This document shows, in pieces, positions 40,272 through 51,632 of a stretch of 64,000 nucleotides of DNA. The position numbers and the translations under genes were made by a program. The stretch comes from Chloroflexus aurantiacus J-10-fl. Its GTDB lineage: Bacteria; Chloroflexota; Chloroflexia; Chloroflexales; Chloroflexaceae. The notes beneath the pieces are model-generated. The model was not told the origin of the DNA. It did no database searches and worked only from the letters and a program-made list of their open reading frames with translations. The DNA lies in the NCBI RefSeq assembly GCF_000018865.1, contig NC_010175.1:434001-498000 (forward strand). The letters are read 5' to 3'. Position 1 is the stretch's first letter. Every line of letters begins with the position of its first letter.

Positions 40272-40310
40272 ATTCCGCAATGCAGACGGTGCAATACACC
40301 TGCACCCTGC

Positions 40311-40410
40311 TCCTCCCTCCGCTGGCATAACCCAGATCAGGTTCAAAGGGTCGGTGTCGGTGGCGATACGCCTAGACACCCTCTCAGCCCGGTTCTCCCA
40401 GGCTCCCCTG
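40311..40410 (-). ncRNA. TPP riboswitch (THI element)
   Basis: On the minus strand the conserved boxes GGCTGAGA and, further 3', GAACCTGATCTGGGTTATG followed by CCAGCGGAGGGA are present in the right order; these are the pyrimidine-sensing and pyrophosphate-sensing parts of the thiamine pyrophosphate aptamer. It precedes thiM-thiE-thiD and the terminator at 40242-40271, so control is by transcription attenuation. Boundaries are approximate. Confidence 0.93.
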
Positions 40411-41046
40411 GCTTATTAGTTACGAAGTATCATATCATGGAAGGATGGCTTGTGCAAGGCTTGTTATCACTCTTGAGTCTCTCAAAATAGACACCGTGTA
40501 AGATCTACACCAATCAACGTGACAGGCAACCCTGCACCTACACCATGGAATATTCTTGCAGAAGTCTCCTTACAGATACCGTTTGCAACACGCAATCCTG
40601 TGTTGTCACAGCGATTATCGCTGATAAGCCTGCTATGACCAACACCCGGCGGTGGCGTAACCGGCAGGGACGCACGGTCTACCGCCCTTCCTCACCTGCG
40701 ACGACGGCGAGTATTGCCCCCTCAAGTATTCCGTACCTCAGCAGGGCGGATGCAGCCCATCGGCAGCGGGCACTTTACGGCACAAACGTTTGTCCCCTGC
40801 TCCACGTGAAGTTATCTCAAAAAAATACAATACATGGCGTGTGACTCAAGACATACTCCCTCGCCGCCCCCTCGTATAGCAATGTGAACAGGTACACGCA
40901 CCACCCGTAGGGGCGGGTTCAGAACCCGCCCCTACGGAACCCACCTACCCTATCATGCAGGTGATCCCTACGGATCATTGCGGATGAGATGGATAGTCAC
41001 GGTTCACCGCATATCCGGTGATAGGTAATGATGCGCCAATGTGATA
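40411..41046. other. Gene-free region with a long perfect palindrome
   Basis: About 640 bp between the riboswitch and the flavin dehydrogenase gene. The promoter of the thi operon should lie near its left end. It holds the palindrome at 40905-40937. A 99-codon open frame at 40545-40844 resembles no family and is not called. Confidence 0.55.
40905..40937. repeat. 33-bp perfect palindrome, REP-like
   Basis: Two perfect 16-bp arms (CCGTAGGGGCGGGTTC and its complement) around one A. Such GTAGGGGCGGGTT palindromes are common dispersed intergenic elements in bacteria. It also lies 110 bp after the flavin dehydrogenase gene end and could terminate it. Confidence 0.75.
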
Positions 41047-49710: not shown

Positions 49711-49920
49711 TCTGCTATTACAATAGTATGCAGAAGAGATTTTGTCAAGCGAGTTGTGAATAATTCGCCAGGGTTTTCCAATCGCACCCCGCTCAACGAA
49801 TGACCGTCAGACATAACCACCATGCACGCAGCCCGGAACCTGCACGTGCACTGGCACGATTGCACACCTGCGTTTGATGATTGGTCGTGGAACATCCACC
49901 GTGAGCAGGCTGCTCCATGT

Positions 49921-49949
49921 TTGACGATCATTCCACTGACTGGTATAAT
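49921..49949 (+). promoter_or_regulatory. infC promoter
   Basis: TTGACG (49921-49926) and TATAAT (49944-49949) with a 17-nt spacer, with a TGG extension before the -10. One of the best promoters in the window. Transcription should start near 49956 and give a leader of about 120 nt before the infC start. Confidence 0.75.
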
Positions 49950-49962
49950 GCCCAATTGACCA

Positions 49963-50069
49963 GACATCGCTGTAGAGCGGTGTCATCTTATTGTTGCAGT
50001 TAGCCGTAAGGGTGACAACAGGTCGTCTTCATCTTTGCCACGACTGTCACCTGTTGCAAGACGAAGGAG
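49963..50069 (+). promoter_or_regulatory. infC leader, candidate ribosomal-protein autoregulatory structure
   Basis: A 9-bp hairpin at 49963-49984 opens the leader. Farther on, arms 50011-50017/50045-50051 (GGTGACA/TGTCACC) and 50023-50029/50058-50064 (TCGTCTT/AAGACGA) interleave and can form an H-type pseudoknot whose last strand abuts the Shine-Dalgarno sequence AAGGAG (50064-50069). A competing stem CAACAGGT/ACCTGTTG (50016-50023/50049-50056) overlaps the first. Regulation by L20 or IF-3 itself is conceivable, as in other infC-rpmI-rplT operons, but not shown. Confidence 0.4.
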
Positions 50070-50076
50070 TCGTGCC

Positions 50077-50862
50077 ATTAGAGACCGGTTTCGCATCAAC
50101 AATCGCATTCGCGCCCGTGAAGTGCGTCTCATCGACGAGAACGGCACCCAGGTTGGCATTGTTCCCCTGCGTGAGGCGCTGGCAATGGCTGAAGAACGAG
50201 GGTTTGATCTCGTCGAAGTTGCGCCTAATGCGGTTCCACCGGTATGCCGTCTGCTCGATTATGGCAAATTCCGCTACGAGCAGAGCAAAAAAGAGCGTGA
50301 AGCACGCCGTAATCAGAAACAGTCGGAACTGAAGCAGATTCGACTGATGCCGAAAACTGATGACCACGACGTCGCAGTGAAGGCAAATCAAGCACGACGT
50401 TTCTTACTGGCGGGCGATAAGGTTAAGTTTAATCTGCGCTTCCGTGGTCGCGAAATGGCTCATCCCGAAATCGGGCGTCAAATGCTCGATCAAATCGCCG
50501 AGCAATTGAGCGATATTGCTGTCATCGAGCAGAAACCGCTCATGGAAGGACGGGTTTTGTCAATGCTGCTTGCCCCAACCGCCAAGGTGTTGAAGGCAGC
50601 ACAACAGGCCCAAAAGGCAGCAGCTCAGCGCACAACAACCGCCGAGTCAGCAAAGCCAGCGACAAGTGCGGCATCTACTCCTGCTACGGCAGAACCGGCA
50701 GATGAAGAAGAGGAAGAGCTGATTGATGATGGCGATGTCGTCGAAGAAGATGAGGACGACGACGACACCTTCGTTGCAGATTACGACGACGAAGACGACG
50801 ATTTTGAAGATGACGATGATGATGACGAGGACGACGAGCGAAATCGCCGGAGACGACGCTAA
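50077..50862 (+). CDS. infC: Translation initiation factor IF-3 with acidic C-terminal extension
   Basis: 261 residues when started at ATT 50077 (GGAG at 50066-50069, 7-nt spacing), the rare start codon also used by E. coli infC. A TTG at 50035 gives a longer form without a ribosome site. IF-3 keeps the 30S subunit apart from 50S and checks the start codon. The N-domain INNRIRAREVRLIDENGTQ and DYGKFRYEQSKKE linker, and C-domain VKFNLRFRGREMAHP are typical. About 80 residues follow the normal end (about 180): an Ala/Thr-rich linker and then an Asp/Glu-rich tract from about 208 to 255, ending in five Arg. First gene of infC-rpmI-rplT. Confidence 0.93.
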   Translation: MRDRFRINNRIRAREVRLIDENGTQVGIVPLREALAMAEERGFDLVEVAPNAVPPVCRLLDYGKFRYEQSKKEREARRNQKQSELKQIRLMPKTDDHDVAVKANQARRFLLAGDKVKFNLRFRGREMAHPEIGRQMLDQIAEQLSDIAVIEQKPLMEGRVLSMLLAPTAKVLKAAQQAQKAAAQRTTTAESAKPATSAASTPATAEPADEEEEELIDDGDVVEEDEDDDDTFVADYDDEDDDFEDDDDDDEDDERNRRRRR

Positions 50863-50917: not shown

Positions 50918-51124
50918 ATGCCTAAGATGAAAATGAAGACGCACAAGGGCGCGAAAAAGCGCTTCAAAGTTACTGCGTCAGGTAAGTTTCTGCAACAGCG
51001 TGGTGTCCGTGGGAATAAGCGCAACCGCCCTAGCCGCTCGCAGCGAGCCTGGGGTAAAGATCAGCCGATTTCTCCCACCAACCGCCGTATGCTGCAAACC
51101 GCTCTGCCCTACGGCCTGGAGTAG
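50918..51124 (+). CDS. rpmI: 50S ribosomal protein L35
   Basis: 68 residues. MPKMKMKTHKGAKKRFKVT is the textbook start; KNRPSRSQRAWGK-like basic stretches follow. Start ATG 50918 has GAGGAG 7 nt upstream. It sits between infC and rplT as in most bacteria. Confidence 0.96.
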   Translation: MPKMKMKTHKGAKKRFKVTASGKFLQQRGVRGNKRNRPSRSQRAWGKDQPISPTNRRMLQTALPYGLE

Positions 51125-51272: not shown

Positions 51273-51632
51273 ATGGCTCGTGTAAAGCGTGGCATTATGG
51301 TGCGCAAGCGCCACAAGAAGTTGTTAGAGCAGGCAAAAGGGTACCGCGGCGCTCGTAGCCGTCACTATAAGGTTGCCCATGAGGCGGTGATGCACGCACT
51401 CGCCGATGCGTATCGCGACCGCCGCCGCCGCAAGCGCGATTTTCGCCGGCTGTGGATTATGCGCATCAACGCGGCTGCCCGACTGCACGGTACGACCTAT
51501 AGCCGCCTGATCAATAGCTTGAAGCAGGCAAATATTGAGATCGACCGCAAGATGCTCGCCGATCTGGCAGTTCGCGATCCGCAGGCGTTTGCCCGCATTG
51601 TCGAGCAGGCACAGGCTGCGGTTACTGCATAA
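51273..51632 (+). CDS. rplT: 50S ribosomal protein L20
   Basis: 119 residues. [20 protein letters not shown] and [20 protein letters not shown] are the family signature, then [20 protein letters not shown]. It binds 23S rRNA early in assembly and in other bacteria represses its own operon. ATG 51273 has AGGAG at 8 nt; an upstream ATG at 51267 is too close. The 148-bp gap from rpmI contains no evident hairpin. Confidence 0.96.

Follow-up and report, generated by a model that had tools for sequence, protein, structure and literature searches.

The leader of the infC-rpmI-rplT operon in Chloroflexus aurantiacus J-10-fl is tentatively read here as a stem-loop leader that combines a probable promoter-proximal attenuator with a start codon sensitive to initiation factor IF3. 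The RNA would fold into two ordinary hairpins: P1 lies beside the promoter, and helix A closes the other, longer one. Behind them would come a Shine-Dalgarno sequence that is largely exposed, and an AUU start codon. P1 and its T-rich tract would act as a weak terminator or pause site about 30–40 nt past the transcription start, as suggested by their anatomy and by the recurrence of such a hairpin in Chloroflexia, and therefore a variable share of the polymerases would reach infC. The effector shifting the balance at P1 would most likely be a product of the operon, with L20 the first candidate by analogy with Bacillus, and abundant IF3 would reject the AUU start, feeding infC translation back on its own product by a mechanism transferred from Escherichia coli. 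Helix A, a stem conserved 5′ of the ribosome site, may serve ribosome access or form a ligand platform.

Table 1. Features of the infC leader and of the genes behind it, numbered in the window (the whole 64,000-nt stretch of DNA that was analysed)
Feature	Position	Strand	Basis or remark
Sigma-70-type promoter TTGACG-N17-TATAAT, TG one base 5′ of the -10 (extended -10)	49921–49949	+	11/12 consensus positions
P1 hairpin GACATCGCT-GTAG-AGCGGTGTC, 9 pairs, candidate attenuator	49963–49984	+	terminator-like scan; pairing probability 0.997
T-rich tract ATCTTATTGTTG, directly 3′ of P1	49985–49996	+	sequence
Helix A, 5′ arm GGTGACA (first arm of the original prediction)	50011–50017	+	paired in all 8 Chloroflexus species
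Inner stem, 5′ arm GTCGT, taking 4 bases of the predicted arm B	50022–50026	+	nested-ensemble probability 0.90
Helix B, 5′ arm TCGTCTT, present yet unconserved	50023–50029	+	complement to AAGACGA in the helix A loop
Competing stem CACGACT (50039–50045) with AGTCGTG (50068–50074)	50039–50074	+	ensemble probability 0.08
Inner stem, 3′ arm ACGAC	50040–50044	+	nested ensemble
Helix A, 3′ arm TGTCACC	50045–50051	+	paired in all 8 Chloroflexus species
Helix B, 3′ arm AAGACGA	50058–50064	+	sequence kept beside the Shine-Dalgarno in 8/8 species, without conserved partner
Shine-Dalgarno AAGGAG	50064–50069	+	predicted unpaired 0.92–0.97 for the first five bases, 0.01 for the last
infC (translation initiation factor IF-3), start ATT	50077–50862	+	NCBIfam TIGR00168, E 1.8e-68 over 50080–50859
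rpmI (ribosomal protein L35)	50918–51124	+	NCBIfam TIGR00001, E 4.5e-10, 39.7 bits, under the 51.2-bit cut-off
rplT (ribosomal protein L20)	51273–51632	+	NCBIfam TIGR01032, E 8.3e-49

Operon, promoter, and the P1 hairpin

The three genes follow one another as infC-rpmI-rplT on the plus strand of a genome of 5,258,541 bases, and the claim of a structured leader preceding infC in this gene order was supported. From the spacing of the promoter, transcription is predicted to start at about 49956. The pattern TTGAC-N18-TATAAT was found 23 times in the 5.26-Mb genome, and the reversed pattern 0 times; furthermore, in 75 of the 81 Chloroflexia leader rows the best promoter before infC scored 10 or more (of 13), a count without a shuffled null. 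Because of this consensus promoter upstream, the genome-wide excess of its pattern, and its presence in 75/81 rows, the whole leader element is probably transcribed; the predicted promoter lies upstream of all of it, rather than giving a start downstream of 50020, which the original prediction had named as telling against it. The operon context belonging to the L20 leader family RF00558, a leader of infC-rpmI-rplT with a promoter before infC, was found here as gene order and predicted promoter. Elsewhere in the window, a TPP riboswitch aptamer was detected at 40297–40419 on the minus strand (65.1 bits).

P1 starts about 7 nt past the predicted transcription start. Lying within the coordinates of the original prediction and absent from its text, it is the part of the leader most worth testing. 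Together with its T-rich tract it is, by prediction, terminator-like in anatomy, a candidate counterpart of the rho-independent terminator of RF00558, and it showed the best terminator-like score among 23 promoters of the genome. Such a hairpin occurs at 4 of 22 other promoters in this genome and at 2 of 16 others in a Roseiflexaceae-like genome (G042), and is not a general feature of such promoters. It is also not unique to infC, since in G042 the rpsL leader scores level with infC (-11.1 and -11.0). In many relatives, TTATTGT, TTTGTTGT, or similar tracts lie 3′ of the hairpin; these T tracts are interrupted by G, which leaves them short of the strength of a textbook terminator. Inspection by eye found no antiterminator pairing of P1. 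A hairpin plus TTATTGT element shared with other promoters of the genus was considered and found no support: the pattern matches only infC in this genome, and of its 18 matches in eight genomes 5 are at infC, with the other 13 standing against 10 for a reversed control.

Compared with shuffles, whole leaders in Chloroflexus showed a weak gain in folding stability (median z -0.70). Over the first 50 nt, the median z of Chloroflexus was -1.71; two sets from the rest of its family (f1) gave -0.62 and -0.46, and the medians elsewhere were -1.30 in Roseiflexaceae (f4), -2.56 in Herpetosiphonaceae (f3), -1.68 in family f2, and -1.29 in Thermomicrobiales-like loci. Single-leader z-scores are modest, and one Chloroflexus leader (L008, z = +0.67) has no stability excess over its first 50 nt.

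Recurrence of a promoter-proximal hairpin in Chloroflexia

Recurrence was scored by one rule, namely a hairpin of -6 kcal/mol or lower with a tail of 5 or more T in 8 nt, within the first 70 nt past the promoter, with the expectation taken from shuffles. Such a terminator-like hairpin was found in 32 of 61 Chloroflexia lineages versus 7.3 expected, a comparison whose calculated tail probabilities come out too small, since the lineages share ancestry and are not independent. The hairpin was present in both Chloroflexus lineages (0.25 expected), 9/10 Roseiflexaceae lineages (1.5 expected), 4/5 of Herpetosiphonaceae and family f2 together (1.0 expected), and 4/7 of the Thermomicrobiales and unplaced loci (1.1 expected; first representatives 4/6 versus 1.0). 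Outside Chloroflexus, the window's own family gave a count near chance, at 2/17 lineages versus 1.0 expected (first representatives 2/15 versus 0.95), and the hairpin has therefore probably been lost or replaced there. Scored by the same rule, a later set of loci belonging to the class but not to the order gave 11/20 versus 2.5 expected, or 12/22 versus 3.1 with two repeats kept. Between lineages the sequence of the hairpin turns over, with its place after the promoter kept.

The first set consisted of 38 author-chosen representatives, in which Chloroflexus and genus g21 each appear twice. L117, L138, and L059, usable rows at first left out, were scored later by the same rule and had no hairpin, so that the total of 61 lineages comprises 32/58 (7.2 expected) plus these three. 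Left out were genus g22, where the gene is cut, genus g29, which gave no match, L056, whose flank is short, and L062 and L116 (promoter scores 8 and 7). Of the 27 loci in the later set, L260, L261, L262, and L267 lacked a promoter score of at least 9 and L282 was too short; of the 22 scored, L277 and L279 repeated earlier contigs and were removed.

P1 could instead be a 5′ hairpin stabilizing the mRNA against decay, or a pause site, rather than a terminator. Its great stability, its start so close to the predicted transcription start, and the interruption of the T tracts by G would all suit such a role. However, protection needs no T-rich tract directly 3′ of the hairpin, and the recurrence test required one; we consider this alternative unlikely.

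Other leaders in the class also contain recurring elements. In the str operon rpsL leaders of Chloroflexales (L220–L249), a conserved and covarying hairpin, CTAAGGCG-[stem]-CGACCAG, was observed with stems such as CAGC/GCTG, CAAC/GTTG, TGAC/GTCA, and CGAC/GTCG. Of 30 distinct rows, 25 carry it, and in 24 rows it lies 50–63 nt past the -10 of a strong promoter. No Rfam family matched it in five loci (E up to 1); it may be an undescribed ribosomal leader. The rpsL leader of Roseiflexaceae-like genomes, as at locus L189 (genome G042), where the str operon genes rpsL, rpsG, and fusA were read, opens directly past its promoter with CTGTGCGGAAAACGCACAG and then GTATTTTATTGTC, with a layout and tail close to those of the Chloroflexus infC leader. 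The infC leaders of family f2 (L134–L137) carry a nearly invariant GTCCCCCTGCCATGTGGACTGGCTGGCGGGAT block past the promoter, and a small pseudoknot would be possible in them through the interleaving of GTCC/GGAC and CCTGCC/GGCGGG.

Start codon, helix A, and the interleaved arms

The ATT start codon of infC (50077–50079) is placed 7 nt past AAGGAG, with no in-frame ATG before the conserved N-terminus. Among 74 distinct leaders, 36 start with ATT, 21 with ATC, and 14 with ATA (71/74), with 3 left unassigned by the rule used, which found no ATG, GTG, or TTG start among the 74. In E. coli, infC starts with AUU, and discrimination by IF3 against AUU, AUC, and AUA codons is established. Because of these start codons and this discrimination, the data point to IF3 feedback as the best supported single mechanism for infC, by analogy with E. 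coli, although it is not new. An explanation in which the AUU start alone matters, through IF3 feedback, and the leader hairpins serve no specific regulator would account for the AUU, AUC, or AUA codons in 71 of the 74 leaders. It appears improbable, as the fixed-place hairpin far above expectation and the covariation of helix A suggest that the leader is under selection too.

The original prediction proposed an H-type pseudoknot formed by two interleaved 7-bp arm pairs, here helices A and B. All four arms lie where it placed them (Table 1), and loops of 5, 15, and 6 nt follow. In the seven core pairs of helix A, 49 of 49 cells are paired over seven distinct rows (eight species, L001–L008, two with identical arms), with two-sided changes at pairs 3, 7, and 8 (G-C to A-U, C-G to U-A, and G-C to A-U, respectively) and a G-U at pair 2. 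A 10-pair version, which extends the core by one outer pair, broken in part, and by two inner pairs that are mostly open, has 85.7% of its cells paired versus 21 to 66% in slid versions. For this version, the observed value was reached by 29/500 shuffles for two-sided pairs, 51/500 for percentage paired, 46/500 for covariation score, and 416/500 for further pair types; these statistics are fair, not strong, because the arms were anchored by the analyst. Judged from these sequences, helix A is a real helix, conserved in Chloroflexus. A nested fold of 54 nt comprising helix A and the inner stem has a predicted energy of -13.9 kcal/mol (helix A alone, -8.5), and the probability of helix A in the nested ensemble, a model that cannot contain pseudoknots, is 0.85.

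Helix B did not share this conservation. It is complete only in this genome among eight Chloroflexus species: the pairing of the helix A loop with AAGACGA is worth -7.6 kcal/mol here, -6.9 in L006 (5 bp), and -1.2 to -3.6 in the six other species. As a bare duplex helix B gives -7.3 kcal/mol, and with helix A about -16 kcal/mol, both before any pseudoknot penalty, which is usually 7–10 kcal/mol. The pseudoknot is sterically feasible, as had been claimed, but the nested inner stem takes the 5′ arm of helix B with a probability of 0.90. The search for covariation in both stems found it in helix A and not in helix B, so that the pseudoknot fails as a conserved structure, with helix B complete in 1/8 species; as far as the comparison reaches, it is a feature of this one sequence.

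If helices A and B formed an H-type pseudoknot that binds L20 beside the ribosome site, this would fit the gene order and the conservation of helix A, and both arm pairs are perfect here and rarer than chance. Among 2000 dinucleotide shuffles, 0.6% (107-nt span) to 0.8% (122-nt span) contained at least one interleaved perfect 7-bp pair, and counts as high as those observed, 2 (107 nt) and 5 (122 nt), arose in 0.15% and 0.05%; this rarity overstates the surprise because the site was picked for its arms, and part of the excess consists of alternative pairings of the same bases (CAACAGGT/ACCTGTTG and CACGACT/AGTCGTG). With helix B not conserved, its 5′ arm occupied by the inner stem, and no match to the L20 leader family at E up to 10, this structure is highly improbable as a regulator. 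A nested stem pairing TCGTCT upstream of helix A with AGACGA was also dropped. It occurs in six of eight species (6 Watson-Crick pairs in four, a G-U among the pairs in one, and 5 pairs in one), with a weaker 5-pair version in a seventh (L002); it is absent from this genome and shows no covariation, because AGACGA never varies.

The claim that the pseudoknot ends on the Shine-Dalgarno sequence held, with arm B overlapping the first base of AAGGAG (50064). The competing stem that had been said to share bases is also present; its 7 bp are perfect, and it and helix A exclude each other. If the CACGACT/AGTCGTG pairing covered the end of the Shine-Dalgarno sequence and the spacer, it could work as a translational switch. 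Such a switch would draw on this exclusivity and on shorter complements in the other seven species (about 4–6 pairs, -6.0 to -7.4 kcal/mol), which may be no more than chance, but CACGACT is in 0/7 of their leaders and the stem has an ensemble probability of only 0.08 here, making such a switch scarcely credible.

Two further patterns were seen near the ribosome site. At 50060–50071, GAC-GAAGGA-GTC surrounds the Shine-Dalgarno sequence and may be a small hairpin presenting the ribosome site; GAC[G/A]AAGGAGTC is found in 27 of 39 family f1 leaders, with almost no variation, and is missing from the deeper f1 genera. A stem class ending before the Shine-Dalgarno sequence in Chloroflexaceae, convincing by eye in clade folds, failed a matched-versus-mismatched test: family-wide, the mean was -18.8 kcal/mol for matched and -17.2 for mismatched pairs, a difference reached in 3255 of 20000 permutations and not significant.

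L20 and comparison with known leaders

No match to the L20_leader covariance model (RF00558) was found in 49900–50130 at E up to 10, nor did the model match a further 25 Chloroflexia loci, of which 20 were searched at E up to 5 and 5 at E up to 1. With stricter filters, 0 of 151 Chloroflexota genomes exceeded the cut-off, and weak matches of 29–30 bits occurred in 4 of them, in loci without an infC match. As positive controls, 6/6 Firmicutes infC loci were detected (E up to 3.5e-6), with 3 exceeding the gathering score, and among 14 control genomes matches were obtained in Bacillus subtilis, Thermotoga maritima, and Lactococcus lactis. When the 23S H40/H41 region of this genome was compared with the leader by eye, unscored, no convincing mimic of the L20 site was seen. 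A literature search on Chloroflexi infC leaders, L20 leaders, and Chloroflexus transcript data returned no paper on a Chloroflexi infC leader, most subscription journals being outside its scope. The absence of the known L20 leader fits the original suggestion of an independent solution in Chloroflexi.

That suggestion had also invoked regulation of the homologous operon by L20 in both E. coli and Bacillus. For Bacillus infC this agrees with the sections of the sources bearing on it, where L20 promotes or stabilizes a terminator before infC in B. subtilis (PMC10931766, PMC6097659); for E. coli it applies to rpmI-rplT only, with infC itself answering to IF3 (PMC10931766, in its passage on this operon). 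Furthermore, a candidate L20 leader of another structure has been proposed for Deltaproteobacteria, as described in the relevant part of PMC7247131. Because of L20 control in Bacillus and E. coli and of this proposal, an L20 leader in Chloroflexia, with L20 as effector, is plausible by analogy.

A wider proposal, which we hold to be doubtful, is that Chloroflexia independently evolved a promoter-proximal attenuator of infC-rpmI-rplT, made of a tiny hairpin and a T tract, fast-changing in sequence, and read by L20 or another operon product without a Bacillus-type binding domain. In Chloroflexus a second hairpin, also conserved, would have been added, while in much of its family a longer leader would have taken the place of the attenuator. 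Ribosomal protein operon leaders have evolved many times, with several distinct ones for L20. A small, fast-changing yet place-fixed hairpin is easily missed by family models. If the proposal is true, attenuation can persist while its RNA turns over.

Among known systems, the Firmicutes leader RF00558, as described in part for B. subtilis, has in common with the present leader the operon, a promoter upstream of infC, and a hairpin with T tract before infC. It differs in that the hairpin here comes directly past the promoter, not past an L20-binding domain, and in that the covariance model finds no match here. The L20 control of E. coli rpmI-rplT, through a long-range pseudoknot and an irregular hairpin, involves the same gene cluster and protein and likewise an RNA structure near the ribosome site, but acts there on rpmI-rplT and not on infC (PMC10931766, in the same passage), and a conserved pseudoknot is absent here. 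The Deltaproteobacteria candidate resembles the present case as a further proposed lineage-restricted L20 leader; in the portion of PMC7247131 that describes it, it has rRNA-like elements, with two G-C pairs and an AA dimer, by which it may differ from the leader here. The likeness to IF3 autoregulation of infC in E. coli lies in the AUU start past a good Shine-Dalgarno sequence here, and in the related codons across the class.
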